From contig NZ_CP045096.1 in assembly GCF_009184865.1 (NCBI RefSeq), forward strand, positions 8,246,001-8,310,000: a DNA stretch of 64,000 nt, read 5' to 3'. This document shows positions 5,197 to 27,786 of this stretch, piece by piece. A program made the translations under genes and the position numbers. The notes under the pieces are model-generated. The model saw only the letters and a list, made by a program, of their open reading frames with translations, did not search any database and was not told the origin of the DNA. This DNA comes from Streptomyces phaeolivaceus. Lineage in GTDB: Bacteria > Actinomycetota > Actinomycetes > Streptomycetales > Streptomycetaceae. How positions within the stretch are numbered: the stretch's first letter is position 1; each line of letters opens with the position of its first letter.

Positions 5197-5457
5197 GGCT
5201 CCCCCTGCGCTCGATGGAAGCCTTCACCGTACATTCGCCCGTCCGATCGCCCTAGAGGATCAGGGCAACCGGGGTGCGTGGGAAGGCAGTTGACGGAGTG
5301 TCGGGTGTCGCGTCCGGTCACCGGCGCGGGGTGTCGGGGTGTCCGGTGCGTGTCGTATTCGGCGCGACTGCTTTCGGATTTCGGGAATTTGACGAAACGG
5401 GTTGCTGCCGGATCGGGTCTCGCGGGACATTTCCGGGTGGCGCGGGGAGGCCTGTCC
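5197..5457. promoter_or_regulatory. Divergent promoter region between FAD monooxygenase and CHAT gene
   Basis: These 261 bases separate two divergent starts and must hold both promoters. The part near 5360-5400 is locally less GC-rich and contains TTGACG (5389-5394), a possible -35, but no convincing -10 at the right spacing. A strong ribosome site GGGGAGG at 5444-5450 lies 7 bases before GTG 5458 and fixes the CHAT start. Confidence 0.45.
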
Positions 5458-8400: not shown

Positions 8401-9258
8401 CCGTTCCACGCCCTGCCCTGGGAGGGCGACGTCCTCGGCGATACCCACGACGTGTCCTACCTCCCGGCGGTCTCCCTCCTCACCCGCCGTCACGGCCGAC
8501 CTCCGGACCGCCCCTGGACCGAGGTGGACGCGCTGCTGGTCGGTGCCCCCGCGAGCGATCCCCGCCACGGGCTGCGGGAGTTGCCGGGCACCGCCGCCGA
8601 AGTCGTCGAGGGCGCACGGCTGTTGCCCCGTGGCCGGGCGCTCACGGGGCCCGCCGCGACCCGTGACGCGGTGCTGGCGGCGGCACACGGCTGCGAGGTG
8701 CTGCATTTCGCGACCCACGGCATGGTCGACGAACTCGCCCCCCACCGCAGCCGGTTGCCCCTCGCCGGTGACGATGTCCTGGGCCTCGCCGACCTGTTGG
8801 GCGTGGCGCACGAGCCGAGACTGCTGGTGCTGTCCGGCTGCGACACCGGCCGGGGCACGGCCACCGCCGGCGGCGACGTCCTGGGGCTGACCCGGGCCGC
8901 CCTGATCACCGGGGCCCGGCACGCCGTGGTCTCGCTCTGGCCGGTCGACGACACCACCGGCTGTCTCGTCCTCGCCCGCACCTACGCGTGGCTGGCCGAG
9001 GAACCCGCCGTCCACCCGGGCACCGCACTGGCCCGAGCGCGGCGCGAGGTGCGCGATCTGTCCGGGGCCGAGCGGTACGAGGAGTTCCGCGCACTCGCCC
9101 GCCGGGCCGGAGTCCACCCCGGCCCGGCCGACCGCGGCCCCGCCCCGGCCGCGCCCCGGCCGCGGTCCCGCGACAGCGCACCCCTGGGCACCGGCCGGGT
9201 CACGGCACACCCCCGGCACCCGTACCACTGGGCGCCCTTCATCCACGTAGGCACATGA
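5458..9258 (+). CDS. CHAT-domain cysteine protease with large helical-repeat body
   Basis: This 1266-residue protein has a C-terminal CHAT (caspase HetF associated with TPR) protease domain at about residues 870-1220. The predicted catalytic dyad is His1087 in FATHG and Cys1128 in LSGCDTG. Both are present, so the protease should be active. Residues 100-800 are Ala/Arg/Leu-rich helical repeats of TPR character, suited to sensing or binding partners. Residues 53-80 form a Gly-His then Gly-Asp tract from a DNA microsatellite. GTG 5458 has an excellent ribosome site (GGGGAGG, 7-base gap). Codon 872 (8071-8073) is TTA, so translation should depend on the bldA tRNA. The caspase gene follows 19 bases later. 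Family knowledge links such proteins to regulated proteolysis and conflict systems; the target is unknown. Confidence 0.9.
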   Translation: MGDGVERYVPWDVGVLTDLLMFERRGVDPGAYRVAGAVGSVGSAGAAGPGVRARGDAHGHGHAHGHGHGHGDSDGDRDGDGGVLDLCLVAAAALAAGEPKRASAVLEEGASSRADGRARLVGAGLVRALRAAAVAMDAEWQPGTSTVPFRSETAAAPLATGGGTRAAAESVADRRLRLAAHLAGRHWPVLLSARMTIGHGVEATAAQERAVRHGVDAHWTERDRAEAVREPLKWFDALYGEYGEYGACGVYGVLGGADALACDALAQHLLLAADLRVRAGDRAGAGPSAREGVRCASGSPASAGFAALLVGDWRLGRPGAAEQCGVEPPGARALSRAAARYRRAEAAYRDAGSERGRAAVLLRLAHVERLGGRPEACERFLARAEESALAAGDGACTALIRVHREIDAIAVGARSGAGVAEAVAHWARTDGSTSWLRGLRQLVLERAEFWSARGDTVRAGRAAGLARGLGGEGGGAGVEAGLYRRARHRLVGVVLAGTEQQEHVAAVGACVGRGEAPGLADCLGVIAAAQAFHRQAVALRDPELMRASGESIEVAIEVGTRYLPGGDQVDTVLALLRSDLVSGRVHESYLRSRRARTAGLVAEADRLARRALREAEGVPDELFRLVVGCSARVDLGERAAAVAAAEAAEPSLTALAAAALWLRLGEPERAARYLPRIGVDGPGPEHPWELPAIRADLALARHAHDEAAAHAREGIRAFEEHRRRLARDALRASSADDPVVAGLHHAAVVSLLSSGRPDAVAAAFDQAERARAGFLDTVHALDTAPSGSPARTAVRDWLAAEVHWSAEFEERAATLRAAGQAGGERGRAGQDRVGEMDGKRWLGEVERGLGVAEEKVRRLAPAALGASYAGELPDAAAVAGALPGGTLLLTYHVFDDVLIGWAMTRDGLTHERQTRRPHTTVAAVRRFHAWCARPDAPGPGGDDEGEAAGRELAELLLRPFAGALDGHRRVIVVPPAAFALLPFHALPWEGDVLGDTHDVSYLPAVSLLTRRHGRPPDRPWTEVDALLVGAPASDPRHGLRELPGTAAEVVEGARLLPRGRALTGPAATRDAVLAAAHGCEVLHFATHGMVDELAPHRSRLPLAGDDVLGLADLLGVAHEPRLLVLSGCDTGRGTATAGGDVLGLTRAALITGARHAVVSLWPVDDTTGCLVLARTYAWLAEEPAVHPGTALARARREVRDLSGAERYEEFRALARRAGVHPGPADRGPAPAAPRPRSRDSAPLGTGRVTAHPRHPYHWAPFIHVGT
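5618..5700 (+). repeat. 6-bp coding microsatellite (GGTCAC / GGTGAC units)
   Basis: About thirteen hexamers of the type (G)GTCAC, some changed to GGTGAC or GGTGAT, run in frame through the CHAT gene. They encode a His-Gly block followed by an Asp-Gly block. Such hexamer runs change copy number by slippage without shifting the frame, so tract length may vary between strains. The His-rich part could bind Zn or Ni ions. Confidence 0.9.
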
Positions 9259-9277
9259 GACACACCGGAGGTGGGCG

Positions 9278-11236
9278 ATGACGCGGCGAGCGGTACTGAT
9301 CGGTGCCGAGACCTACGGTCTGACCGGGGTGCACACCGATGTCGGGGTGATGGGCGAACTCCTCGCCGGGCACGGCTTCACCGACATCCGGGTCCACACC
9401 GGGGACCGGGCCGACTACGCGGGCATCAAGGGGGCGTTGCGCGGGCTGCGCGCGGATACCGCCCCCGGTGACGCGCTCGTCGTCTACTACTCCGGCCACG
9501 GGGCGCTCCTGGGAGACCTGCAGTGCCTCGTGCCCGTCGACATGGCGGACGGTACGGCCACGGACTTCCGCGGCTATCTGGCCGAGGAACTCACCGCCGC
9601 CGTCCGCGTCCTCACCGAGAGGACGGCCAATGTCACCGTCGTCCTCGACGCCTGCCACTCCACCGGGGCGGTGCGGGAGGCCGCGTACCGGGCGGGGCGG
9701 TCGGCGCTGCGGTCGGTGGAGGTGGCCCTCGAACGGAGCGTGTGGGACGCGGGGTTCGCCCGGCTGCGGGCCCTGTCCGGCTCCCGCGACCCGCTGGTCC
9801 CCGGCGTCGTACGGCTGACCGCGTGTCAGCAGCACGGTTCGGCGTACGAGGCCGAGTTGCGCCCGGGGGCGGGCAGGCAGGGCGTGTTCACCGCCGCGCT
9901 CGCCGAGGCGCTCGGCACGCGGTGGGGGCGGGAGCTGCCGTGGTCGGTCCTGATCGCCCGGATCCGTGACCTGGTCAAGCAGCGGCAGGTACGGCAGTGG
10001 CCCGACGCGGGCGGCCCGGCCGGACGGCTCCCCTTCTCCCTGGAGGAGCCGCCCACCCCGGAACGGCTGCCGCTGCTACGGCGCGACGGACGGTTCGTCG
10101 TGCCGGGCGGTTCCGTGTTCGGGCTGGGCCGAGGGGACACGGTGTCCCTGCGGTTCCCCGTCGACACGACCCCCGGCGCCCCGCCCGGCGGCCGTTCACG
10201 GAAAACCGCCGTACCGGAGGCGGTCACACCGGAGTCGGCCGAATCGGAGGTGGCCGTGTCGGCGGTCGTGGTGGAGGCGGGGGCGGGGGACGCGGTTCTC
10301 CGGGCCGTGCCGGGCCCCGGGGGTCCCTCCGAGGACGACCTGCGTACGGCGGAGCCACCGCCCGGTGCGTACGCGATCCCGGTCGAGGTCCATGACCGCC
10401 GTCATGTGTTCCTCGACGCCGAAGGGCCCTTCACCGACGCCCTGCGCGAGGAGTTGGCGGGCTGCCCGCGCCTCGCCGAGACGCCGCACGTCCAGGACGC
10501 CTTCGCGACCGTACGCGTACGGAACGGGCGCGCCGAGGTACTGGACCGCGACGGGCATCCCTTTCGGGAGCCGTGCGGCGAACCGACGCGGCTGGCCTCG
10601 CTGTTGGAGGAGCTGGCGCGGGGGGAGCGGGTGCGGCGGCTCACCGATCCAGTGGGAGCGGGCCTGCTCGGCGCCCCCGTGGAGGTCCGGTTCGAGAGCG
10701 AGGACCCGGTCGGCGGTGACGTCTGGCGGCCGTTGCGGCGGGAGGGGGTGCGGCTGTACGACGGCGACCGCTACCGGGTGGTCGTGGCCAACCGCTCCGG
10801 TGTGCCGCTGTACTTCTGGGTGATCGGCGTGGGGCTCAGCGGGCGCGTCACCCTGGTGACCGCCGACCAGCCCAGCGGTCTCCGGGTGGAGCCGGAGGGC
10901 GCGGCACATCGCGCCACCCGAGTCACCCCGCCGGTCGAGATCTACTGGCCGGGCGATGTGCCCCGGCGGGGGCCACGGCCGGAGACCCTGCACGCCCTCG
11001 TCGGCGACCGGCCGATGGACCTCGGCGGGCTGGCCTCCCCCGAGGCCCGCGAGCGCACCGCGCGCGCCGGCGCCGACCCCGCCCTGGACGCGCTGCTCCG
11101 CGAGGTCTGGGACGGCGTACGCGACCAACGGCCCCTCGGGAACGAGGAGTTCCACCACCGGGTGTGGACCGTGCACGCCGACGCGTACCCGGACCGGAAC
11201 GCCGTCGCCCACCTCGACGAGGAGGCCGGTGCGTGA
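9278..11236 (+). CDS. Caspase-like (peptidase C14) protein with C-terminal DUF4384-like domain
   Basis: This is a 652-residue protein. The N-terminal domain (1-250) is a caspase fold. RRAVLIGAETY opens the first strand, His74 lies in VVYYSGHGA, and Cys126 lies in LDACHSTGA; both catalytic residues are intact. The middle (about 260-370) is proline-rich and looks like a linker. Residues about 450-560 contain DRYRVVVANRSGVPLYFWV, resembling the DUF4384 beta domain often fused to bacterial caspases. ATG 9278 has GGAGG 5 bases upstream and is 19 bases from the CHAT stop, so the two proteases are cotranscribed. It may cleave a specific partner on a signal, perhaps after activation by the CHAT protein; this is inference. 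Confidence 0.9.
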   Translation: MTRRAVLIGAETYGLTGVHTDVGVMGELLAGHGFTDIRVHTGDRADYAGIKGALRGLRADTAPGDALVVYYSGHGALLGDLQCLVPVDMADGTATDFRGYLAEELTAAVRVLTERTANVTVVLDACHSTGAVREAAYRAGRSALRSVEVALERSVWDAGFARLRALSGSRDPLVPGVVRLTACQQHGSAYEAELRPGAGRQGVFTAALAEALGTRWGRELPWSVLIARIRDLVKQRQVRQWPDAGGPAGRLPFSLEEPPTPERLPLLRRDGRFVVPGGSVFGLGRGDTVSLRFPVDTTPGAPPGGRSRKTAVPEAVTPESAESEVAVSAVVVEAGAGDAVLRAVPGPGGPSEDDLRTAEPPPGAYAIPVEVHDRRHVFLDAEGPFTDALREELAGCPRLAETPHVQDAFATVRVRNGRAEVLDRDGHPFREPCGEPTRLASLLEELARGERVRRLTDPVGAGLLGAPVEVRFESEDPVGGDVWRPLRREGVRLYDGDRYRVVVANRSGVPLYFWVIGVGLSGRVTLVTADQPSGLRVEPEGAAHRATRVTPPVEIYWPGDVPRRGPRPETLHALVGDRPMDLGGLASPEARERTARAGADPALDALLREVWDGVRDQRPLGNEEFHHRVWTVHADAYPDRNAVAHLDEEAGA

Positions 11237-11551
11237 AGGCCATTGCGTGCGCCCCGGTGCGGTGCGTGCATACACGCGGGACCCGGCGGCGTCCGTCCGG
11301 CCGGGTCCCGTGTGTCCCCCCGCGTGTCACAGCATGCGCGCGGTGCGGGGTCCGCTTCCCCGCAGCAGTGCGGAATTCGGCGGTTCGGGTTCGCCACGGG
11401 TTCCCGCCCCGATCTCCCACCCGCCCCGGTCTCCCATCCGACCCCCTCCCTCAACTGGCTTGAACGGAAAGGGTATTTAGGCGTCGATCGGTGGATATCA
11501 TGCTGGGCAGCGCGGACGTACGGGAAGTCATGGAGGCGAGGCGCGGACGTC
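11237..11551. other. Intergenic region before the Crp-like gene
   Basis: These 315 bases hold a strong hairpin (11272-11315), then about 230 bases without a recognisable gene. The last 90 bases are less GC-rich and contain TTGAAC at about 11460 and TATCAT near 11497. These are poor promoter boxes with wrong spacing. A promoter for the Crp/cyclase pair is likely here but cannot be placed. Confidence 0.5.
11272..11315 (+). terminator. Hairpin terminator after the CHAT-caspase transcript
   Basis: The arms CGGGACCCGGC (11277-11287) and GCCGGGTCCCG (11300-11310) pair perfectly around a 12-base loop. The stem extends outward through ACACG/TGTGT with one G-U pair. It begins about 35 bases after the caspase stop and separates the protease pair from the Crp-like gene. 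Confidence 0.75.
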
Positions 11552-12250
11552 ATGGACGGGTGGCCGCACGGCACGTTCCTCGCCGAGTTGTCCGGGGCCC
11601 CGGAGGCCGGCGCGGCACTGCTCTCGCTGGGGACCCCACGCTCGTACGAGGCGGGCGAGATCCTGCTCTCCGAGGGGCGGCGGGAGACCTTCGTGCTGTT
11701 GCTGCTGACCGGGGTCACCAAGGTCACCGCGCTCACGGAACAGGGCGACACCGCGCTGCTCGCCGTACGGATCGGCGGGGATCTGGTGGGGGAGTTCGCG
11801 GCCTTCGACAACCGGCCCAGATCGGCCACGGTCACCGCCGCCGGTACGGTCACCGCCCGGCGGGTCGGCCAGCGGGAGTTCCTCGGTCTCCTGGACCGGC
11901 ATCCGGCCACCGCCCTCGGGGTGAGCCGCATGCTCGTACGCAAGAACCGATGGTCGGTACGGCGGCGGGGCGACTTCAGCGGCTGCCCGGTGGGCACCCG
12001 GGTCGCCCGCGTCCTCGTCGACCTGGTCGAGGACTACGGCCGGCCGAGCCGTGACGGACTGCTGATCGGCCCCCGGCTCACCCAGGCCGAACTCGCCGGA
12101 CTGGTCGGCGCCAAGGCCCGCCGCGTCCATCACGTCCTCGGTGAACTCTCCGACCTGGGCCTGATCCAGGTCGGCTACAGCAGGGTGACCGTCCTGTCGG
12201 AGGCCGGGCTTCGCCACGCGGCACGGCTGGCGCGGGCGGACGGGCGGTAG
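11552..12250 (+). CDS. Crp/Fnr-family transcription regulator with cyclic-nucleotide-binding domain
   Basis: This 232-residue regulator has an N-terminal cNMP-binding beta-roll (about 15-130, with YEAGEILLSEG and GGDLVGEFAAFDNRPRSATV) and a C-terminal winged helix (about 160-225, with LTQAELAGLVGAKARRVHHV as the helix-turn-helix). The position of the usual phosphate-binding cassette (GE-x6-RSAT) is well kept, so it may really bind a cyclic nucleotide. The ATG has GGAGGCGAGG upstream. The next gene, 30 bases on, has nucleotide-cyclase signatures, which suggests a signal maker and signal reader in one operon. Targets may include the CHAT/caspase genes just upstream. Confidence 0.88.
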   Translation: MDGWPHGTFLAELSGAPEAGAALLSLGTPRSYEAGEILLSEGRRETFVLLLLTGVTKVTALTEQGDTALLAVRIGGDLVGEFAAFDNRPRSATVTAAGTVTARRVGQREFLGLLDRHPATALGVSRMLVRKNRWSVRRRGDFSGCPVGTRVARVLVDLVEDYGRPSRDGLLIGPRLTQAELAGLVGAKARRVHHVLGELSDLGLIQVGYSRVTVLSEAGLRHAARLARADGR

Positions 12251-12280
12251 GAGAGCAGCGGCCCGGCAAGGGCAGGGGGC

Positions 12281-13621
12281 ATGGCAGGGCAGGGGTGGTG
12301 TTGGGGGACAAGGGCGCGGAGGACGAGGGTGTGGGGGGGCAAGAGTGTGGGGGGCGATGTGGACGGTGACGTGGACGACGACGTACTGGCGACCTCGGAT
12401 CTGCTCGCCCTCGACGGTTCGGTCCCCAAGGGGCCGGGCGGCGAGCGGCCTCCGCCCGACCGGCTCGGCGGGGTCTCGCTGGGCCGTCCGCTCGGCTACG
12501 CCCTGCCCGTGCAGGCCGACGGCGGTACGGCGACGCCCACGCACCGCCCCCATCGGGACGTTCTCCTGTGCTTCCCGTTCGACCTGGAGGAACTGCCGTA
12601 CGGTCGCGCCTACCAGCAGGTCACCCTCACCGTCCGCTTCGACGACGGCCCGTACGTCCTCGCCCTCCATCCGGCACCGGGTACGACGGCCGGGGACGGG
12701 GCGGAGGTCGCCGCGTACGGGATGGGGCAGGACCGGCTCCGCTGGACCTTCCGGGCGCCGGGCCGGACCGGTGGGCTGCGGCCCGACGGGCGCTGGGCAC
12801 AGGCCGTCGTACGGCTGCCCGGTGACACGGTGGAGGTGTCGGGCCGGCTGAGTCTGGAGACGGTGACCGTGCAGCCCGTGCTCGGCGGGGCGTTCCGTCG
12901 CCGGGTGGCGACGACCCCCTTCGACACACCGTTCCGGCTCCGTACGGACGAGACCTGGCTCGCCGCGACACCGCCCGCGTACGACGCCGCCCTTCCCGGC
13001 GCCTGGGCGCTGGCCGGGCTCGGCGGTGAGGAGCATGAACTGCCGCCCGGGGTGCGGCGGTTGTGTCTCGCCGTCGACATCGAGAAGTACAGCGCGCGGG
13101 ACAACGCGGACATGGTGCGGTTGCAGCGGGTGCTGCTGCGGACGCTGCGGGGGGCGTGTGCGCGGGCCGGGGTCGGGTGGGAGCGCTGTGGGCGGCAGGC
13201 GCAGGGCGACGGCTATCTGCTGGTGCTGGAACCGGGGATCGACGAGTCCAGGGTGGTGCCCGCGCTGCTGGACGGGCTGGCCGCCGGTCTCGCCGCGGGC
13301 AACGCCCTCGCGCCGGTCCGGATGCGGGCCAGTCTGCACCAGGGCATCGTCCACGAGGCGGACAGCGGTTACGCGGGCTCCGCCGTCGTGGCGCTCTTCC
13401 GGGTGCTCGACTCGCCGCCCGTCCGCAGGACCCTCGCCGACGCGCCGGAGGTCCACCTGGTGGCCGCGTTCTCCGACCCGCTCTACCAGGATCTGGTGGT
13501 GGCCAGCGGTTACGCGGGCCTGTCGGCCGAGGGCTTCCGGCGCGCGGAGGTGCGGATCGAGGCGAAGAACTTCTCCTCCGTCGCCTGGATCCGCACGGTG
13601 GCGGTGCCGCCGGGACGGTAG
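12281..13621 (+). CDS. Protein with C-terminal class III nucleotide-cyclase-like domain
   Basis: This is a 446-residue protein, or 420 if it starts at GTG 12359, which also has a G-rich site. The N-terminal 230 residues form an unassigned beta-rich region with FPFDLEELPYG. From about residue 255 the sequence resembles class III adenylate/guanylate cyclases. LAVDIEKYS contains Asp266, matching the first metal Asp of the DIxGF motif. RQAQGDGYLLVL contains Asp310, matching the second. RASLHQGIVHEADSGYAGSAVVAL corresponds to the later GxHxG...G-AVN region. Both metal Asp residues are kept, so catalysis is possible. It lies directly after a Crp-type regulator. It could instead be an inactive cyclase-fold adaptor. 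Confidence 0.7.
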   Translation: MAGQGWCWGTRARRTRVWGGKSVGGDVDGDVDDDVLATSDLLALDGSVPKGPGGERPPPDRLGGVSLGRPLGYALPVQADGGTATPTHRPHRDVLLCFPFDLEELPYGRAYQQVTLTVRFDDGPYVLALHPAPGTTAGDGAEVAAYGMGQDRLRWTFRAPGRTGGLRPDGRWAQAVVRLPGDTVEVSGRLSLETVTVQPVLGGAFRRRVATTPFDTPFRLRTDETWLAATPPAYDAALPGAWALAGLGGEEHELPPGVRRLCLAVDIEKYSARDNADMVRLQRVLLRTLRGACARAGVGWERCGRQAQGDGYLLVLEPGIDESRVVPALLDGLAAGLAAGNALAPVRMRASLHQGIVHEADSGYAGSAVVALFRVLDSPPVRRTLADAPEVHLVAAFSDPLYQDLVVASGYAGLSAEGFRRAEVRIEAKNFSSVAWIRTVAVPPGR

Positions 13622-13682: not shown

Positions 13683-14144
13683 TCACAGGCGGCATTCCTG
13701 GTGGCACCAGGTGAAGAGGGCGCGGGACTCGTCGAGCCACTGGTCGGCCATGACGCGGAACGCGGTCCGGGTCACCTGGCAGGCCAGCGGCAGGGTGCGG
13801 AAGCCCATCAGGTACGGGGGCTGTTCGCCCGCGAGGTTGCAGATGGACAGGGTCGGGGCGAGCTGTTCGATGTTCCAGGCGGTCGCGGCGGCTGCGGCTC
13901 GGGCCAGTTGGTCGTTCTCCAGATAGCGGTCGTCGGTGACCATGATCAGCAGCATCTCGGTGCTCGTCGTGGTGAAACCGAGCTGGATCCGCCGCTCGGC
14001 CTCCGGATGCTCGAACTCCAGGCCCACCGAGGAGGCGTCCGCCTCGAACGGGCGGTGCTGGCGGGTCACCCAGTCGTTCACCAACCGCCGCCAGTGGACG
14101 GCCAGTTCGACGGGCTGTTCCATGGACGGGTCAGTGTCTGACAT
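13683..14144 (-). CDS. Small YbjN-like / secretion-chaperone-like protein
   Basis: This 153-residue soluble protein is rich in aromatic and acidic residues, with a two-layer alpha/beta pattern (for example RRIQLGFTTTSTEMLLIMVT, then helices ending in WCHQECRL). I do not recognise a firm family. The pattern resembles YbjN or type III secretion chaperone folds. It is the last gene of the seven-gene minus-strand operon, and its start overlaps the end of the Hsp70 gene by 14 bases, so the two products are translationally coupled. A cofactor or substrate-adaptor role for the short Hsp70 is a reasonable guess. Confidence 0.6.
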   Translation of the reverse strand: MSDTDPSMEQPVELAVHWRRLVNDWVTRQHRPFEADASSVGLEFEHPEAERRIQLGFTTTSTEMLLIMVTDDRYLENDQLARAAAAATAWNIEQLAPTLSICNLAGEQPPYLMGFRTLPLACQVTRTAFRVMADQWLDESRALFTWCHQECRL

Positions 14145-15354
14145 GGCTCATGGCCTCCCTCACCATCTCGCCGGTCAGCCCGGCGTCCAGCAGCGCGCGG
14201 ACCTTGGTCGGCAGGGGTGGGGGTTCCCTCTGGACCTCGAAGCCCTGCCAGGCCAGCCAGGCCGCGCCGGTCGCCACCGCGAGCTCCGGCTCGGAGACGG
14301 TGAGGACCGTACGGCCCGAGCGTTCGGACAGCAGCTCGCCGACCATGGGCAGCCGGGAGCTGCCGCCCACGGGGACGATCAGATCGAGGTCGCCCCACTC
14401 CAACCCGTAGGCGCGCAGCACCCGTTCGCACTCCTCGACCGTCTCCCACAGCAGTGGCCGTATCGCCTCCCGCAGATCGGCCTGGGTCAGGGTGACCTCG
14501 GCCGGCGGGTCCAGCATGGTCAGCAGATCGGAGTGCTCCTGGGAGACGGAGAGCTGCTGCTTGAACGTGACACAGGCCTCGGAGAGCAGGATCGCCCGGC
14601 GCAGCGCCGTCGCGTCGTCGTGGTGCGCGGAGGTCTGCCGGAGCCGGTCCACGCCGTCGGGGCAGCGGTCCCGCAGGAGGCCCAGTACGACCTGGTCGAT
14701 GGCGAGCCCGCCGACATGGGACAGACCGCCGGGGGCGCCGAGGACCGAGTAGCTCTCCTTGGTCCCCTGGGCCACCGCGAGGTCGAAGGTGCCACCGCCG
14801 AGGTCGTAGACGAGCACCGTGCGGTCACGGTCCATGCCGTGGTCGTGCAGGGCGTAGACCATGGCCGCGACCGGTTCCGTCTCCAGCCTGACGATCTCCG
14901 GCGGCAGCCCCGCGGCCTCGGCGGCGGTCAGCATCAGCTCGCGCCGGTACTCCTCCCAGGTCGCCGGGACGGTGATCACCACGCGTGCGGGGGCGGCGTT
15001 GACGGCGGTTCGCGCCCGGTCGACCAGGAAGCCCAGCACTTCGGCGGTCAACTGCTCGGTGGTGAGCAGGCGTTCGCCCAGCTGATGCCGGTCCGGTTCG
15101 CCGAACTCCTGCTTGAACTCCGCCCGGAACCGCCCCGGACGCTGTAGCCGAGAGTTCTGTGCCGCCTGGCCCACCACCATCGAGCCGTCCGGTTGCAGGC
15201 ACACCGCGCTGCGCACCGAGGTGGCCCCGAACGGGCTCACCGGGTCGCGCACCGGCAGGGGCGGGTGGTCCGGCCGCAGGACCACCAGCGCGGACGTCCA
15301 GGTGCCGAAGTCGATGCCGTAGACCGGGCCCGTCGGGTTCCCGCCGCCGCTCAT
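14131..15354 (-). CDS. Hsp70-family ATPase lacking a substrate-binding domain
   Basis: This 407-residue protein carries the complete actin-like ATPase signatures of Hsp70: phosphate-1 loop YGIDFGTWTSALVV near residue 13, phosphate-2 loop VYDLGGGTFDLAV near 180, and adenosine motif VPVGGSSRLPMV near 335. It ends about 50 residues after the ATPase domain, so the peptide-binding domain of DnaK (about 230 residues) is absent. It overlaps the dynamin gene before it by 4 bases (ATGA) and the small gene after it by 14. A GrpE-like gene lies three genes upstream in the same operon. It probably acts as an ATP-driven switch for the operon's own products rather than as a general chaperone. Confidence 0.9.
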   Translation of the reverse strand: MSGGGNPTGPVYGIDFGTWTSALVVLRPDHPPLPVRDPVSPFGATSVRSAVCLQPDGSMVVGQAAQNSRLQRPGRFRAEFKQEFGEPDRHQLGERLLTTEQLTAEVLGFLVDRARTAVNAAPARVVITVPATWEEYRRELMLTAAEAAGLPPEIVRLETEPVAAMVYALHDHGMDRDRTVLVYDLGGGTFDLAVAQGTKESYSVLGAPGGLSHVGGLAIDQVVLGLLRDRCPDGVDRLRQTSAHHDDATALRRAILLSEACVTFKQQLSVSQEHSDLLTMLDPPAEVTLTQADLREAIRPLLWETVEECERVLRAYGLEWGDLDLIVPVGGSSRLPMVGELLSERSGRTVLTVSEPELAVATGAAWLAWQGFEVQREPPPLPTKVRALLDAGLTGEMVREAMSHVRH

Positions 15355-17561
15355 GGGGTGTCGAACTGGTCGGGGTCGAAGGAGGAGCCGAGGCCGGGGG
15401 AGTCGGCGCTGAACGGGGGTGTGTCCGGCGGGGGTTGGATGTCCGGGGGGGTGAGGTCGACGGTCGTCTCCTCGGCCGGTGCGGCGTCGACGGGTGTGGC
15501 GTCCTTGGCCGGGGCCGGGGCCGGGGCCGGGTCGAAGGCCGGGTCCGGGGCCGTGGTCGTGAAGGCCGTGCCGGCCTGGGTGAAGGCCGCGCCCACGGCG
15601 ACCTCCGCGGCCAGGCCGGCCGCCACGTCCTTCGCGGCCGACCCGCGCGGCCGTGCCGGGCCGGGTGCGGTGGGTGCCGAGGGCCGCGGTGGGGGTGGTG
15701 TCGTCACGCGGTCCACCCGGCCCCGCAGCCGGTCCAGTTCGTTCTGCAACTGCTGGTAGGTCTGCTGTCGGGCCTGCAACTCGCCCCGGCGCTTGGCGAG
15801 TTCGGCCTTGGTGCGGCCCGTGGCGGCCTGAAGCCTGCGGCCGGACTCGGCGAGGGACTCCTGCTGGGCGGAGAGCTGGGCGTTGAGGTCGGCGATGAGC
15901 GCCTGGGCGACGTCCCCGTGGGCCTGGTTGAAGGACTCGGTGGCGCGGCGGCGGCTCTCGGCGATCTCCTGGGTGATCAACTGCTGCATCCGGGCGTCCC
16001 GTTCGCGCTCGGCACGTTCACGGAGGTCCCTGCGGTGGTTGCGCACGCCGTGGACGAAGCCCATCGTGCCCAGGCCCACCACGGCCGCGGCGCCGCCGAT
16101 GAGGAAGGGGTCCATCATCATGACGACCCCGCCCGCGCCCGCGCCCGCCATCCCGGTGGACCAACTGGCCCGCAGCTGATCGAAGAACCGGGCCGGACGC
16201 ACGTTCAGCGGCACGGAGGGAACCGAGATGGCGGGCTTGAAGGGCGGTTCGGGCACCTCCGGCGAGGTGAGGTCGAGGCTGGTGCGCCGGGCGAAGTCCT
16301 CCATGACGGCCACGGCGACGGCGGCCAGCTGTTCATGGGCCGTGGTCAGTGCCTTGAGCATGTCGGCGGCGACCCGGCCGACCAGCTCGTCGTCGCCCGG
16401 GTCGGTGCCCGCGTTCACCTGCTCCTGATAGACGCGCAGCGCCGAGGTGAACCCGGTCTGGAGCCCTGTACGCGCCTCGCGGGTGTCGTGCTCGAAGCAC
16501 TGCCGCAGCTCCGTACGCCACTCGGCGCCGCCGGTGGCCAGCGCCTTCAGCCGGGTGGTGGTCTCTCCCACCTCGCGGCGGATCCGGTCCAGGGACTCGT
16601 CCGACTCCAGGGCCGCGAGTTCGTTGACCACGGGCGAACCGGCGGTCGCCACGGCGTCGCCGAGCGCGTCCAGGGCCCGGCGCAGCTGGACGGCGCCGCT
16701 GGTCGTGGCGAGCCCCTCCCACAGGGCGTGGTCCAGCTGCGGGAAGCCGGAGTCGGCCAGCAGCCGGCCGTCCGTGCGGTCCCTGAGCCACTTGTGCTTG
16801 CGGAAGGAGGAGACGGGGACGACGACCAGCTGTTCGGCGGGGCGGCCGGTGCGGGCGGCGATCTTCTCGCGGGCCCCGGCGACCACGGGCGCGGGATCGG
16901 CGACCTTGTCGGTCTTGGTGACGACGGTGATGACCACCTCGCACTTCTCCAACGCCTCGCTGAGGAAGTCGAGTTCGTAGGTGGCGAGGGGCTCGATGGC
17001 GTCGCAGACGAAGACCAGGCCGTCGGCGCGGTCCAGGAACGTCCGGGTGGCGGCGATGTGCGCGGAGTCGCTGCTGCCGACGCCCGGTGTGTCGATGACG
17101 GTGAGACCGGACTTCAGCTGGGGCACGGGGGCCTGGATCTCGACGAGTTGGACCTGCTTGTGGTTGCGCGGGTTGCCCTGCTCGGTGACGTACTCCGGTA
17201 ACCGGTCGATGCCGACCGTCACTTGGCGTGCCGTGGTGCCGCCTCCGGTCTGCGGGGCTCCGAGGTGCACCACGGCCTGTTCGCGCGGGCCCCAGGAGAG
17301 GGTGCACACCACACAGGTCGCCACGTCGACGTCCACGGGGAACAGTCCTGGCCGTTCCACCAGGGCGTTGAGCAGGAAGGACTTGCCCCGCTTGAACTCA
17401 CCGCAGACCACGATCCGGCAGGTGCCCCGCTCCAGGCGAGTCCTGGAGCGGTCCAGCAACTCCCGCTGACGGGGCCCCAGTTCCTCGGCAAGCGCTGCGG
17501 TGAGCCGGGGGTGGGCGGCCAGTACGTCCGCGCGCAGTCGGCTGAAGACGTTGTCCGGCAT
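15351..17561 (-). CDS. Dynamin-like GTPase A with membrane segment and coiled coil
   Basis: This is a 736-residue bacterial dynamin-like protein. The GTPase domain (about 45-300) has P-loop GEFKRGKSFLLNAL (54-67), switch region ATCVV (81-85), DTPGVGS and TKTD. The middle is helical. A hydrophobic patch near residues 460-500 (FLIGGAAAVVGLGTMGFV) should be the membrane paddle or transmembrane segment. It is followed by charged coiled coil (ESRRRATESFNQA, then RRGELQARQQTYQQL) and a Pro/Ala-rich tail. Codon 121 (17199-17201) is TTA, a bldA-type codon. A second dynamin gene starts the same operon, as is usual for paired bacterial dynamins. The likely role is membrane remodelling or guarding. Confidence 0.9.
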   Translation of the reverse strand: MPDNVFSRLRADVLAAHPRLTAALAEELGPRQRELLDRSRTRLERGTCRIVVCGEFKRGKSFLLNALVERPGLFPVDVDVATCVVCTLSWGPREQAVVHLGAPQTGGGTTARQVTVGIDRLPEYVTEQGNPRNHKQVQLVEIQAPVPQLKSGLTVIDTPGVGSSDSAHIAATRTFLDRADGLVFVCDAIEPLATYELDFLSEALEKCEVVITVVTKTDKVADPAPVVAGAREKIAARTGRPAEQLVVVPVSSFRKHKWLRDRTDGRLLADSGFPQLDHALWEGLATTSGAVQLRRALDALGDAVATAGSPVVNELAALESDESLDRIRREVGETTTRLKALATGGAEWRTELRQCFEHDTREARTGLQTGFTSALRVYQEQVNAGTDPGDDELVGRVAADMLKALTTAHEQLAAVAVAVMEDFARRTSLDLTSPEVPEPPFKPAISVPSVPLNVRPARFFDQLRASWSTGMAGAGAGGVVMMMDPFLIGGAAAVVGLGTMGFVHGVRNHRRDLRERAERERDARMQQLITQEIAESRRRATESFNQAHGDVAQALIADLNAQLSAQQESLAESGRRLQAATGRTKAELAKRRGELQARQQTYQQLQNELDRLRGRVDRVTTPPPPRPSAPTAPGPARPRGSAAKDVAAGLAAEVAVGAAFTQAGTAFTTTAPDPAFDPAPAPAPAKDATPVDAAPAEETTVDLTPPDIQPPPDTPPFSADSPGLGSSFDPDQFDTP

Positions 17562-17567
17562 GGTGGT

Positions 17568-18167
17568 TCACCTTTCGTCGGGCCGGTGTGGGTCGGGCAG
17601 ATAGCGGCCCAGGAACTTGGGGGCGAGCCGGCGGTAGTGGGGGACGAGCGCGGGTTCCAGCAGCCGGGTCAGCAGGCCGCCGAACTCGCCGGGCCGGGCG
17701 CCGCCGCCGGGCTGCCGCCCGTGCGCCAGCTCGTCGAGCAACTCGTCGTAGAGCGTGAGGAGTCGGGTGCGCAGGTCGCGGTAGGCGTTGGTGGTCAGCC
17801 CCGCCACGGCCGGGTGGGGGAACCGGCCGACCGGCCGGGACCACTCCGCGCGGGAGCGGTGCGGCTCCTTGAACCGCAGGTCCGTGTACTCGACCAGCCG
17901 CCGGGTCGACCAGTCCACCGTCGCCGTGGCGAACGGCGGGAACAGATCGGCGCCCCCGGCCGGGTCGGGCCGCATGACGAACAGGGGCAGCCGTACGTAG
18001 ACCCGGGGCGTCCCGTCCTGCACCACCGGCACGGGCAGCGGCCAGCCGATCCCCGCCTCCATGGGCACGAGTTGCCGGATCACCGGCGAACGACGCACCT
18101 CCCGGCACAGCGCCTCCGAGCGCGGGCCTTCCGCCGGACTCCCCGCCGGGTCACCGGATGTCGTCAT
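17568..18167 (-). CDS. Unknown soluble protein of the dynamin/Hsp70 operon
   Basis: This is a 199-residue protein that I do not recognise. It has a beta-rich first half (WPLPVPVVQDGTPRVYVRLP) and a helical second half (YRDLRTRLLTLYDELLDELA), with no signal peptide and no membrane segment. ATG 18165-18167 was chosen because it overlaps the end of the GrpE-like gene by 17 bases, matching the tight spacing of the operon. The dynamin A gene starts only 6 bases after its stop. A conserved position between GrpE and dynamin suggests an adaptor linking the two. Confidence 0.65.
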   Translation of the reverse strand: MTTSGDPAGSPAEGPRSEALCREVRRSPVIRQLVPMEAGIGWPLPVPVVQDGTPRVYVRLPLFVMRPDPAGGADLFPPFATATVDWSTRRLVEYTDLRFKEPHRSRAEWSRPVGRFPHPAVAGLTTNAYRDLRTRLLTLYDELLDELAHGRQPGGGARPGEFGGLLTRLLEPALVPHYRRLAPKFLGRYLPDPHRPDER

Positions 18168-18888
18168 GGGACGCCTCCCGGGAGGAACCGTGGAACGAGC
18201 CGGGTGGTGAGTCGGGGGACGCGCTGTGGGACGGGTCATGGGTGGGGTCGCCTTCCTCGCCGGGCTGCGGGACGTCGGGGGTCTCGCCGTCGGGTTCGGG
18301 TACGCCGTGGGGCGGGCAGGGGGGTGTGTCGTCGGGTTCGACGGCGGTGTGCGTGACGTCGGGGGTGCCGTGGCCCGGTTTCGTCGGTGGTACGTAGGCG
18401 ATGACCTCCTGGTGGCGGAGTACGGTCCCGCCCCAGAGGTAGCCGGGGCGTACCGTCTCCGCGATGGTGCCGGAGCGCAGGCCCGACGGGTCGGTGCGGG
18501 TGGCGACCACGTTGTGCCGGGTGGGGTCTGCCCGGCCGGAGTCCTCGACCGCTGTGACACCGGCCGCGACCAGTGCGGCCAGCACGCTGCGGCGCACCCA
18601 GTCCAGCACCGGGTCGTGCGTCCGGGCGTCGGCCGTCCCCGGGGGCGTCGGCGGCAGTTCGGCGATCCGGTCCAGCAGCCGGATGAGCGGGGCCGCGACC
18701 TCCGGCACCGGGGCGGTGGGCACGGCCGCGGCGGGCCGCGGCGCTGCCGGGGGCTCGTACCGGGCCCGTAACTCCCGTTCGATACGGGCCCGTTCGGCCA
18801 GGAGCCAGTCGGCGCATCGGGTGGCGAGGTCGGTCAGGTCCTCGGGCGGGTCGTCCGCCCGCTCGACGTTCGGCGCAGCCATGGTCAT
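18151..18888 (-). CDS. GrpE-like nucleotide exchange factor with acidic tail
   Basis: This is a 245-residue protein. Residues about 20-60 are helical. Residues 115-175 match the GrpE C-terminal beta domain: VTAVEDSGRADPTRHNVVA, then LRSGTIAETVRPGYLWGGTV and LRHQEVIAYVP, parallel to the GTV...GY..GDRVLRPA.V.V pattern of GrpE. The last 60 residues are acidic and proline-rich and look disordered. It should drive ADP release from the short Hsp70 of the same operon. Codon 40 (18769-18771) is TTA, so this gene, like dynamin A, should need the bldA tRNA. It overlaps the preceding peptidase gene by 4 bases. Confidence 0.8.
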   Translation of the reverse strand: MTMAAPNVERADDPPEDLTDLATRCADWLLAERARIERELRARYEPPAAPRPAAAVPTAPVPEVAAPLIRLLDRIAELPPTPPGTADARTHDPVLDWVRRSVLAALVAAGVTAVEDSGRADPTRHNVVATRTDPSGLRSGTIAETVRPGYLWGGTVLRHQEVIAYVPPTKPGHGTPDVTHTAVEPDDTPPCPPHGVPEPDGETPDVPQPGEEGDPTHDPSHSASPDSPPGSFHGSSREASHDDIR

Positions 18889-19700
18889 ATCTCCCGTGAG
18901 GTGCCCGCGGCGACGAGGAAGTTGCCGGAGTCCTGCCAGGCGCCCATGAACTCGTCCAGCGGCACCTCCAGGCCCTGGCCGTCGGGGTGCCCGGAATCGT
19001 TGAGGATCACCGTCGGGTGCGCGGGGTCGCTGTTGTCGATGCCGGTGACCCAGACGGCGTGGTTGGCGTCCTGCCCCGCGATGCCCGGCGCGTCACCGAG
19101 GAGGTCGTCGTCCGGGTCGTGTCCCGGTGCCCAGATCTCCTGCGCGTCCAGGGTGACGATCGCGGCACCGCCGTCCGCGATCACGCCCTCCAACTGCTCC
19201 AGGGACGCGCCCTCCACCTGCCGCACCGGCACACCGTGCAGTCCCAGCAGGCTCCCCACGTGCTCGGGCAGGGTGCCGGTCCCGTCGTACCACTCCCTGC
19301 TCATCGCCTCCTCGGTGAGCTGCTCCTCGCTGACGCGCTCCCCGGTCAGATACTCCAGGACCATGCCCTGGGCACTGATCGCGCAGGCCATCTGCCCCTC
19401 CTGTTGCTGCCAGAGGTCCATGGCCTCGCCGGGGTTGCCGAGGACGGCGGCGGGATCGCTCCGCGCGGGGTCGAAGTTCGGCAGGTCCGGGACGCCGTCG
19501 TCGGTGGCCGGCGCCCCGTCCGGGGCGAGGTCCGGAGCCGGGTCCGGGTCAAGGGCCGGATCGCTCTGCGGGTCGGCGTACGGGTCCGGTGGTACGGCGT
19601 ACGGGTCCGTCAGGTCGGCGTACGGGTCCGTCAGGTCGGCGTACGGGTCCGTCAGATCCGCGTCCGGGTCGGCACCCGGGTCGTACGGGTCCCAGCTCAT
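18885..19700 (-). CDS. C39/papain-like cysteine peptidase with N-terminal Asp-Pro-Tyr repeats
   Basis: This is a 271-residue protein. Residues 15-40 are near-perfect repeats of DPYADLT, followed by an acidic, proline-rich stretch to about 90. The fold then resembles C39-type peptidases: Gln103 and Cys106 in EGQMACAISAQ, His214 in DANHAVWVTGID, and Asn234/Asp235 in ILNDSG. All catalytic positions are present. There is no signal peptide, so it should act in the cytoplasm. Neighbouring genes overlap by 4 bases on both sides. It may mature or cleave a partner such as a dynamin; that is inference. It could instead be a non-proteolytic papain-fold toxin-like enzyme. Confidence 0.8.
   Translation of the reverse strand: MSWDPYDPGADPDADLTDPYADLTDPYADLTDPYAVPPDPYADPQSDPALDPDPAPDLAPDGAPATDDGVPDLPNFDPARSDPAAVLGNPGEAMDLWQQQEGQMACAISAQGMVLEYLTGERVSEEQLTEEAMSREWYDGTGTLPEHVGSLLGLHGVPVRQVEGASLEQLEGVIADGGAAIVTLDAQEIWAPGHDPDDDLLGDAPGIAGQDANHAVWVTGIDNSDPAHPTVILNDSGHPDGQGLEVPLDEFMGAWQDSGNFLVAAGTSREI
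19599..19661 (-). repeat. 21-bp tandem repeat in the peptidase N-terminus
   Basis: Three consecutive 21-base units (19599, 19620, 19641, the last with changes) encode the heptad DPYADLT. A diverged partial copy lies just before them. The frame is kept, so unit number can change without breaking the gene. Confidence 0.9.
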
Positions 19701-21478
19701 GGGGCACTCCTCTCACCGTCGAGCCCGATCGGGTCGTTGCCGTCGTCGTCGCCGCCGTCACGGCCGCCGTCGCCGTCGTCCCTGTCGCCGTACAGCAGGA
19801 CGCGCGCCCGGTCGACGAGGTCGGCGACGCGTTCGTACGACCGCAGCACCACCCGTGCGACCGTCAGCGTGGGGCGGTCGAGCAGTGGGTCCCCGGCGCG
19901 GGCGGCCCAGTGGGCGGCGCGGGCGCGGGCGGTGCTCAGCAGGACGTCGACCGGGGTGTCCGGCGGCAGGCCGAGCCGGGCCGCGCAGCCGGGGCCCCGC
20001 TCTCCGGTGACCGCGAGGAGCTGGGCCTCCTCCGGGGCGGTCAGGTTCAGCCGGCCGCGGTAGTGGGCGCCCAGCGCGGCCAGTTCGGACGGGCCGGGGT
20101 CGCTGATCCGGGCGCTCTCCAGCAGCCCGGCGACCCGGTCCGCCACCCGTGGGGGCCGCCGCCCGGCGCGCTGTGCCGTGGCGCGCAGCCGGGCCACCTC
20201 GTCGGCGATCTCGCGCTGCCCGTGGTCCAGTTTGATCAGGGCGGACCGGTTGCCGAAGTGCCGCAGCACCAGGCCCCGCAGCTCGGTCACCCCGCTGTGT
20301 TCCAGCAGCCGCCGGCGCACCTCCGCCTCGGCCAGCCCCTCCCGGAGGTAGCCACAGGCCAGGAACACGCCCCACGCCCCCAGCCGGCCCACCAGCGAGG
20401 CCCTCACCTCCGCCGGAACGGGCAGGTCCGGATGGTCGCGGACACAGAACAGATGGACGTCCTCCATCCGTTCGGCCAGCAGCCTGGGCTCCACCTCCGC
20501 GAGGTCGGCGAGCGGTCCGAAACCGTCGCCCGGCAGGCACTGGGCGCCCACCCCGAGCAGCCCGGCGACGGGCACGATCGTGCGGAACACCCGCCGGACC
20601 AGGGGCCGTTCACCGTAGGACTCGGCGATACGACGGGCCGTCGCCATGGGGTCGTAGGTGAGATAGCCGGCCGGTTCCAGCGGCATGCCGTCCCGGCCGG
20701 TCTCGCCCACGGGCGGCCAGTACTGGTCGCTGCGGGAGAGCACCCCGAACGCCTTCAGCGGGCTGACCACCTCTCCGTACGAGCCCGCGAAGGAATCCAC
20801 CGCCTGCTGGTCGGCCCGGCCCAGGCCGCGGCTGAACACGAAGACGACCGCGTCCGCCCGGTCCATCTCGGCGGCGCTCTCCGCGTGCACGGAACGGGCG
20901 TCCTGGCCCAGCTCGGCGAGCACCCGGGCCGCCTCCGTCCGCTCGGCGGGATCGTCGATGCCCAGGAAGGCGAGGGTGTTCTCGGCGTCGGTGCCGTGCA
21001 CACTGCCCAGGCCCGGGGTGTCCACCACCCGGAAGCGGCGCAGCAGCGGGCTCGGTCTGCCCACCTCCACCTTCCGCACCGCACGCAGCAGGCCCAGCCC
21101 GTCGCGGGAGCGCACGGTCAGCCGGGACAGCGCGTCCGGAGGCCACTCCTCGGGCGTCCGGCCGTCCTTGAAGTGGACGGTCAGCCGCGGGTGCGCGGAG
21201 TGGTGGAACTCGCAGACGTTGAAGGTGAGTTCCAACTGCCCGGTGTCCGAGACCTCTTCGCCGAGCAGCGCGTTCACCAGGGTCGACTTGCCGCGCTTGA
21301 TCTGGCCCGCGACGGCGACCCGCATCGGCTGCCCCATACGGGCGCGCGCGGCGTTCACCACGGCGTGCAGGCGCTCCGCGAGCGGGTCGGCCGGGTCGAT
21401 CTCACGGGCGATCCTGGCGAAGACCTGGTCGTGCGGTGCGGTGGCCGAGAAGTCCGGTGGGCTCGGCATCCCGGTCAC
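19697..21478 (-). CDS. Dynamin-like GTPase B
   Basis: This is a 593-residue dynamin-like protein and the first gene of the minus-strand operon. G1 is AGQIKRGKSTLVNALLGEE near residues 56-74, G3 is VDTPGLGS near 150, and G4 appears as SRSDQ in place of TKxD. The rest is long helices (RGLVLRHFGNRSALIKLDHG, then repeated Leu/Arg heptads), with no strong membrane segment and a short acidic, Gly-rich tail. Paired with the longer dynamin A it probably forms hetero-oligomers, as two-component bacterial dynamins do. Its stop overlaps the peptidase start by 4 bases. It differs from the DynA-DynB division pair by its Hsp70/GrpE/peptidase neighbours. Confidence 0.88.
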   Translation of the reverse strand: MTGMPSPPDFSATAPHDQVFARIAREIDPADPLAERLHAVVNAARARMGQPMRVAVAGQIKRGKSTLVNALLGEEVSDTGQLELTFNVCEFHHSAHPRLTVHFKDGRTPEEWPPDALSRLTVRSRDGLGLLRAVRKVEVGRPSPLLRRFRVVDTPGLGSVHGTDAENTLAFLGIDDPAERTEAARVLAELGQDARSVHAESAAEMDRADAVVFVFSRGLGRADQQAVDSFAGSYGEVVSPLKAFGVLSRSDQYWPPVGETGRDGMPLEPAGYLTYDPMATARRIAESYGERPLVRRVFRTIVPVAGLLGVGAQCLPGDGFGPLADLAEVEPRLLAERMEDVHLFCVRDHPDLPVPAEVRASLVGRLGAWGVFLACGYLREGLAEAEVRRRLLEHSGVTELRGLVLRHFGNRSALIKLDHGQREIADEVARLRATAQRAGRRPPRVADRVAGLLESARISDPGPSELAALGAHYRGRLNLTAPEEAQLLAVTGERGPGCAARLGLPPDTPVDVLLSTARARAAHWAARAGDPLLDRPTLTVARVVLRSYERVADLVDRARVLLYGDRDDGDGGRDGGDDDGNDPIGLDGERSAP

Positions 21479-27664: not shown

Positions 27665-27786
27665 ACTCACCCGGGTCACCCGCATCGCCCGCATCGCCCG
27701 CGTCACCCGGGTCACCCGCATCGCCCGCATCGCCCGCGTCGCCCGCGTCACCCGGGTCACCCGCGTCGTCCGGGTCACCCGCGTCG
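27665..27786. repeat. 9-bp imperfect tandem repeats between the two SARP genes
   Basis: About thirteen units of the pattern CGCATCGCC / CGCGTCACC / CGGGTCACC fill the gap between the two SARP genes and touch the 3' end of the upstream one. On the minus strand they keep an open frame that would read Gly-Asp-Ala / Gly-Asp-Pro into the downstream SARP start. The array may once have been coding. It has no spacers. Confidence 0.85.

Follow-up and report, generated by a model that had tools for sequence, protein, structure and literature searches.

A 64,000-nucleotide stretch of Streptomyces phaeolivaceus DNA (contig NZ_CP045096.1, positions 8,246,001 to 8,310,000; hereafter the window), taken from a genome of 10.2 Mb, carries on its minus strand, at 13683-21478, seven closely spaced genes for two dynamin-like GTPases, a cysteine peptidase, a GrpE-like protein, an Hsp70 reduced to its nucleotide-binding domain and two small proteins, here called small4 and P0007. 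Comparison of this operon with its relatives identifies a recurring cassette of two IniA/IniC-type dynamins, a C39-type peptidase, small4 and an Hsp70 ATPase domain, which is found in Streptomyces and on one cyanobacterial plasmid, and to which GrpE, or a vWA-PP2C-kinase triad, or DO-GTPase-type proteins are joined as exchangeable add-ons. With a probability of roughly one half, we read this cassette as a membrane-surveillance device, probably serving conflict or immunity, in which an Hsp70-type switch would act on the dynamin pair and the protease would be its regulator or trigger.

Gene order and distribution of the cassette

All seven genes lie where a first-pass annotation of the sequence had placed them, and Pfam matches bear out its naming of the dynamins, the peptidase, GrpE and Hsp70. 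Read from dynamin 1 downward, the order is dynamin 1, C39-type peptidase, GrpE-like protein, small4, the IniA-like dynamin 2, Hsp70 and P0007, a protein with a YbjN/type III chaperone fold. The junctions between them measure -4, -4, -17, +6, -4 and -14 nt, that is, three 4-base overlaps, two longer overlaps and one 6-nt gap. Overlaps or near-contacts were noted at first pass as well, and the single translation unit proposed on that basis is what the spacing suggests; scans for sigma-70 promoters and terminators gave nothing exceeding chance. The ratio of non-synonymous to synonymous change (pN/pS) against the related locus L085 is 0.25-0.47 for six of the genes, all except GrpE. Together with the order of six of the genes, which five other Streptomyces genomes keep, this makes the gene set more than a chance assembly.

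Among 392 Streptomyces genomes, members of the small4 family were found in 8 and relatives of P0007 (at least 58% identity) in seven, all of them within the small4-bearing eight. In six of these eight (G000, which holds the window, G535, G567, G377, G626 and G371), dynamin 1, the C39 peptidase, small4, dynamin 2, Hsp70 and P0007 stand in a row in the same order. GrpE is present in only three of the six rows (G000, G535 and G567); the other three (L088-L090) have no GrpE match and carry, ahead of dynamin 1 and co-directional with it, a vWA-PP2C-kinase triad. Of its members in L088, PP2C gives a clear match, the kinase falls just under the Pfam cut-off, and the vWA protein is assigned by way of an L095 relative with 68% identity. 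The triad had no match in the window, L085, L087, L100 or L118, the sequence upstream of dynamin 1 spanning only 1.8 kb in L085 and 2.7 kb in L087. When L100 and L118 are added to the six rows, five loci have GrpE without the triad and three have the triad without GrpE; since the triad loci are closely related (vWA 95% identical), this alternation represents few independent events. The triad also occurs elsewhere in Streptomyces, including this genome, with P0007 paralogues (about 42% identity) and without dynamins (L091-L097); at these loci the paralogues are accompanied, besides the triad, by a kinase and a variable protein, and a PEP carboxykinase adjoins in L095, the one locus checked with Pfam.

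More divergent loci keep parts of the set. L100 reads dynamin 1, GrpE, dynamin 2, Hsp70 and a P0007-like gene, L118 reads dynamin 1, GrpE, dynamin 2, two inserted genes and Hsp70, and L119 reads dynamin 1, dynamin 2 and an Hsp70 fused to WD40, all three without C39 and small4; G373 has a small4 of 49% identity followed by a dynamin-1-like gene at the contig end. The inserts in L118 (13894-15818), judged by eye from their translations, resemble a resolvase of the IS607 type and a TnpB-like protein. Across the class, 4 of 246 genomes yielded relatives of dynamin 1 at E <= 1e-30, and ten close and one distant case appear to share a contig between the best 120 of 316 dynamin 2 matches and the 60 small4 matches. 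This patchy spread, in small4 as in the dynamin 1 lineage, fits an accessory device.

Outside Streptomyces, a tblastn search of plasmid records with small4 returned a single record, pANA01 of Anabaena sp. 90 (L151), and the family is also present in Stanieria by protein record. On one strand of pANA01 lie genes for an Hsp70, four hypothetical proteins, a C39 peptidase, small4 and two dynamins, with helix-turn-helix and CHAT genes adjoining. Identity to the window genes is 36% for Hsp70 (409 residues, ATPase domain only), 42% for C39, 41% for small4, 28% for dynamin 2 and 36% for dynamin 1. Among the four hypothetical proteins, one scores 57 bits to both DO-GTPase models (cut-off 27), one scores 21 bits to DO-GTPase2 and two are without a Pfam match; no GrpE match was found in the cluster, and no GAP1 among the nine cluster proteins scanned. 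Four of its proteins (Hsp70, the clear DO-GTPase-type protein and the two without a Pfam match) end in -WF. Such endings occur in 5 of 44 frames of at least 80 codons at L151, the fifth being an unannotated frame, and in 2 of 8556 in the other loci compared, which suggests a shared docking tail. Two Anabaena proteins of 479 and 412 residues (L151:14100-18913) share an N-terminal domain without a Pfam match.

Wider sampling, with profiles built from the Streptomyces rows only, followed the dynamins into other genera. Dynamin 2 matched 30 records of the plasmid collection, and 11 loci (L151-L161) were hand-picked from the 25 listed. The dynamin pair stands with Hsp70 in all eight actinobacterial loci examined there (L152, L154-L160; two chromosome-sized records, four from Rhodococcus), and C39 is present in four of them, in the adjacent region in L155 and L156 and a few kb off in L154 and L159. 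At the alphaproteobacterial L153 and the Lysinibacillus L161 nothing but dynamins was matched; all five core genes are present in L151. A further 23 genome-contig loci comprise 14 with a clear dynamin pair, two with a weak pair and seven with a single dynamin. None of the seven single-dynamin loci has an Hsp70 in the stretch examined, several of the genome-contig stretches being short or at contig edges, and the comparison of pair and single-dynamin loci is a crude control for linkage. In the gene-neighbourhood comparison proposed at first pass, the core genes mostly travel together, in the six Streptomyces rows and in the Anabaena cluster, while in G637 they are split.

Predicted properties of the encoded proteins

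The Hsp70 of the window carries the phosphate and adenosine motifs of the ATPase domain, as read by eye. Its best profile stretch ends at position 371 of 599, the DnaK structure in PDB aligns over residues 11-365, and the peptide-binding domain of canonical DnaK was not found in its 407 residues with Pfam, so that it is not an ordinary folding chaperone. The same reduction is common among its counterparts. In a survey of 17 non-Streptomyces Hsp70s beside dynamin pairs, a hydrophobic 19-mer follows residue 380 in 14, the exceptions being L119 (WD40 instead), L151 (none) and L158 (canonical DnaK). Thirteen of the 14 scanned with Pfam are without a peptide-binding domain, only L158 covering the whole HSP70 profile. 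Further domains found by Pfam include WD40 in L119, a WD40-like repeat in L064 and a weak BON match in L082; in Nonomuraea (L160:10654-12054), an Hsp70 ATPase domain is fused to a CD225 (IFITM-type) membrane domain and adjoins a dynamin pair. Judged from their sequences, most of these dynamin-linked Hsp70s resemble ATPase switches that are bound to the membrane and have exchanged their output domains. No such hydrophobic segment was seen in the Streptomyces and Anabaena Hsp70s, where the lost domain may be replaced by the products of partner genes.

Both dynamins resemble mycobacterial IniA (PDB 6j72, from M. smegmatis). For dynamin 1 the match (5.4e-14) covers residues 27-169, the G domain, in which the P-loop GQIKRGKS and DTPG are present and G4 is degenerate (SRSD). 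Dynamin 2 aligns over residues 34-607, nearly its whole length, with G1, G3 and G4 motifs and a hydrophobic stretch at 479-503. Its C-terminus carries the motif FDPxx[FY]DxP in 20 of 22 close Streptomyces rows (P0005, P0019-P0039), the exceptions being P0020, a 568-residue record identical to the window protein over 76% of it, and P0026, which is named partial. A search of its own genome with dynamin 2 at E <= 0.001 brings up the two dynamins of the window and nothing else. In PADLOC, dynamin 2 matches the LeoA (9.5e-15) and LeoBC (1.3e-14) profiles and dynamin 1 matches LeoA (3.7e-7), profiles that come with no cut-offs; these matches could be explained by general dynamin similarity.

The C39 peptidase begins with about 90 residues rich in Asp and Pro. 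The Cys and His that we take to be catalytic are kept in alignments of the six Streptomyces rows, Anabaena and three Rhodococcus/Prescottella rows, and the candidate Asn/Asp is also conserved. A PNFDPA stretch ahead of the catalytic domain is kept in six of six aligned rows; a functional link between this stretch, the dynamin 2 tail and the -WF endings of Anabaena would be speculation.

The GrpE-like protein matches the Pfam profile only C-terminally, at positions 96-162 of 165 and with 26.5 bits against a cut-off of 25.8, the part of the profile for the N-terminal coiled coil being unmatched. The C-terminal part of known GrpE contacts the Hsp70 ATPase domain. Although barely above the cut-off, the identity is supported by the match to PDB 4ani and by the position beside Hsp70.

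Neither small4 nor P0007 has a Pfam match. The start of small4 is most likely at 18167 rather than at the GTG of the longer frame, and 14 residues are invariant across 40 aligned rows of a family of 60 homologues. Its AlphaFold model (predicted local distance difference test, pLDDT, 91.7) gave no match in PDB at E <= 0.001. In a viral structure library the sole match at this threshold was an uncharacterised phage protein (Siphoviridae sp. ctMAv2), a model-based likeness that may be a hint that a phage component is mimicked or sensed. P0007 has the fold of YbjN and class I type III chaperones, at 9-14% identity to YbjN-type structures.

Four genes in tandem on the plus strand (5029-13621) point towards the operon and are listed with it in Table 1. 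Relatives of all four adjoin the operon in L085 and those of the CHAT and caspase-like genes do so in L086, while relatives of the Crp and cyclase-like genes adjoin dynamin 1 in L119, a locus of another family. A SARP-like regulator with BTAD, NB-ARC and TPR domains lies upstream of the operon (27775-30747, minus strand).

Table 1. Operon genes and convergent neighbours, with positions in the window
Feature	Position	Strand	Length and evidence
Dynamin-like GTPase 1	19697..21478	-	593 aa; Pfam Dynamin_N 1.5e-11; IniA PDB 6j72 match; motifs
C39/papain-like cysteine peptidase	18885..19700	-	271 aa; Pfam PF13529 (Peptidase_C39_2) 2.5e-8; alignments
GrpE-like protein	18151..18888	-	245 aa; Pfam GrpE 5.9e-6; PDB 4ani 1.6e-4
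small4	17568..18167	-	199 aa; family without Pfam entry; 60 homologues; AlphaFold model
IniA-like dynamin 2 (P0005)	15351..17561	-	736 aa; Dynamin_N 1.4e-18; PDB 6j72 2.8e-26
Hsp70, nucleotide-binding domain only	14131..15354	-	407 aa; Pfam HSP70 2.1e-39; DnaK PDB alignment; orthologues
YbjN/type-III-chaperone-fold protein (P0007)	13683..14144	-	fold match; no Pfam match
Convergent neighbour, outside operon	12281..13621	+	446 aa; C-terminal domain looks nucleotide cyclase-like by reading; no Pfam match
Convergent neighbour, Crp-type regulator	11243..12250	+	Pfam
Convergent neighbour, caspase-like peptidase	9278..11236	+	Pfam PF00656 7.3e-16
Convergent neighbour, CHAT-domain protein	5029..9258	+	Pfam PF12770 1.7e-49

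A putative membrane guard and its alternatives

It has been suggested at first pass that the operon encodes a membrane guard, and this role is plausible in view of the dynamin family, the hydrophobic segments of the related Hsp70s and the biology of IniA and DynA. Lipid binding and scission activity are reported for IniA in passages of PMC6715688, and bacterial dynamins are described as paired membrane machines in parts of that source and of PMC6104087. The two dynamins would similarly form a heteropair on the inner membrane, on which the Hsp70 domain would sit as an ATP-driven switch, seemingly membrane-anchored in most relatives, with its missing output domain perhaps replaced in trans in Streptomyces and Anabaena; in Streptomyces the YbjN-fold protein is the candidate for holding the peptide. 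Setting or resetting of the switch would fall to GrpE or to the kinase-phosphatase-vWA triad, and damage or invasion would release it. The peptidase might then make the step irreversible, perhaps through the disordered tail of dynamin 2, upon which the dynamins would tether, seal or block the membrane. Hsp70 control, a reset arm of GrpE or phosphorylation and the protease trigger are suggested by gene content and by the module swap. The control by Hsp70 and GrpE proposed at first pass is retained for Hsp70 as a putative switch; GrpE is not indispensable to it, since three of the six rows have the triad and no GrpE match, and the Anabaena cluster has no GrpE match either. Tentatively, and with somewhat less confidence than in the general reading, we further propose an immune-type device that is mobile and crosses phyla. 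Its membrane dynamin heteropair would be held by a non-chaperone Hsp70 switch (mostly membrane-anchored, but in Streptomyces and Anabaena divided among parts that act in trans), a dedicated papain-like protease would fire it, and small4 would be a new core family.

Several results weigh against membrane surveillance as the function. Only 8 of the 14 clear-pair genome-contig loci have Hsp70 near the dynamins and none has C39 (several stretches being short or at contig edges), and the Hsp70 adjoining the dynamin pair in L158 is a canonical DnaK. Within Streptomyces, the reading frames of dynamin 1 and Hsp70 are broken in G626 (L089). In G637 small4 and most of dynamin 2 lie 3.5 Mb from Hsp70 and P0007, and neither of the two 20-kb stretches yielded dynamin 1, C39 or GrpE. 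Of the seven genes, GrpE shows the weakest constraint (pN/pS 0.71 against L085). PADLOC returned for the seven proteins only the Leo-type dynamin similarity and a marginal PD-Lambda-1 match (0.0098), and Pfam found no GAP1, DO-GTPase or FNIII in the seven operon proteins and 12 neighbouring frames.

An envelope-stress or drug-tolerance operon of the iniBAC type, in which the dynamins would repair or vesiculate the membrane under cell-wall stress with Hsp70, GrpE and the YbjN-fold protein as quality-control helpers, is a possible though doubtful explanation. It accounts well for the nearly full-length alignment of dynamin 2 with IniA, for a tandem pair like iniA-iniC and for the neighbouring Hsp70 being canonical in L158 and, by reading of its translation, apparently in L120. 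It fits poorly with an Hsp70 that lacks the peptide-binding domain of a folding chaperone, with small4-bearing cassettes in just 8 of 392 Streptomyces genomes and with a cross-phylum plasmid copy that adjoins a DO-GTPase-type protein and CHAT. It is improbable that the operon is a membrane-vesicle or protein-export device, with dynamins budding vesicles while the YbjN-fold protein and C39 handle an exported peptide. C39-type peptidases often process export leaders, and P0007 has a type III chaperone fold; on the other hand, Pfam found no transporter among the seven proteins, and no 19-mer of the C39 protein reaches the hydrophobicity threshold applied. A developmental machine, whether for sporulation septation, for the programmed lysis considered at first pass or of DynA-DynB type, is the least probable of these explanations and very unlikely. 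Streptomyces DynA and DynB do belong to the sporulation division machinery, according to passages of PMC6104087; the search of 392 Streptomyces genomes, however, left 384 without a small4-bearing cassette, plasmids of a cyanobacterium and of Rhodococcus type carry related sets, and nothing examined points to developmental lysis or sporulation.

Comparison with known systems

Parts of this arrangement are already in print, namely Hsp70 beside cyanobacterial dynamins, a dnaK-like gene beside iniR, and Hsp70 with GrpE in GTPase-centred conflict systems (in portions of PMC5827413, PMC5760070 and PMC7159879, respectively). The first-pass annotation could not name a pathway and held that a known one would refute it; a description of the dynamin pair with C39 peptidase and Hsp70 was not found in titles, abstracts and passages among the papers listed by searches of the open-licence literature, and passages of PMC9950537, PMC10104851 and PMC8195603 hold nothing on this gene set.

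The membrane-surveillance reading finds its nearest organizational parallel in the GTPase-centric conflict systems of Kaur et al. 2020, for which passages of PMC7159879 describe an Hsp70 + GrpE theme and a non-overlapping kinase + PP2C + vWA theme, and a subset of DO-GTPase/GAP1-N2 systems with a second Hsp70 lacking the peptide-binding domain. The window shares the first theme and L088-L090 the alternative, so that the swap of GrpE for the triad parallels the two themes. The Anabaena relative, with one clear and one sub-threshold DO-GTPase-type protein, is of interest since the same passages report these systems as nearly completely absent in cyanobacteria. The GTPases of the cassette are, by contrast, dynamins, and the main text of PMC7159879 does not mention dynamin, C39 or YbjN and mentions papain once. 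The cassette may thus work like a GTPase-centric system, and it is not filed as a member because the window lacks Pfam matches to GAP1 and DO-GTPase.

With iniBAC (IniA, IniC) the cassette shares tandem dynamins and the near whole-length IniA similarity of dynamin 2, and in M. smegmatis, by an excerpt of PMC5760070, the dnaK-like gene is the neighbour of iniR. It differs in adding C39, GrpE, small4 and YbjN-fold genes, and no operon protein matched an IniB model in Pfam or NCBIfam, the existence of such a model being unchecked. In the 'chaperone' clade of cyanobacterial dynamins a DnaK-domain gene lies downstream of the dynamin gene, in a passage of PMC5827413 that names no C39, small4 or GrpE; the term C39 is absent from the main text of that paper. 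P0007 belongs by fold with YbjN, DR1245 and the class I type III chaperones. To Leo (LeoA, LeoBC), the likeness consists of dynamin 2 matching both PADLOC models at about 1e-14. To our knowledge, the Leo system contains neither Hsp70 nor peptidase.

In conclusion, dynamins, Hsp70s without a peptide-binding domain and C39 proteases, known apart, are joined here in one recurring cassette, and a loosely described association of Hsp70 with dynamins acquires a definite set of genes, with a new protein family among them. The closest functional precedent found is DynA of B. subtilis, which delays phage lysis according to part of PMC8844932, and the cassette offers a route to ask how bacterial dynamins such as IniA, LeoA and DynA are switched on.

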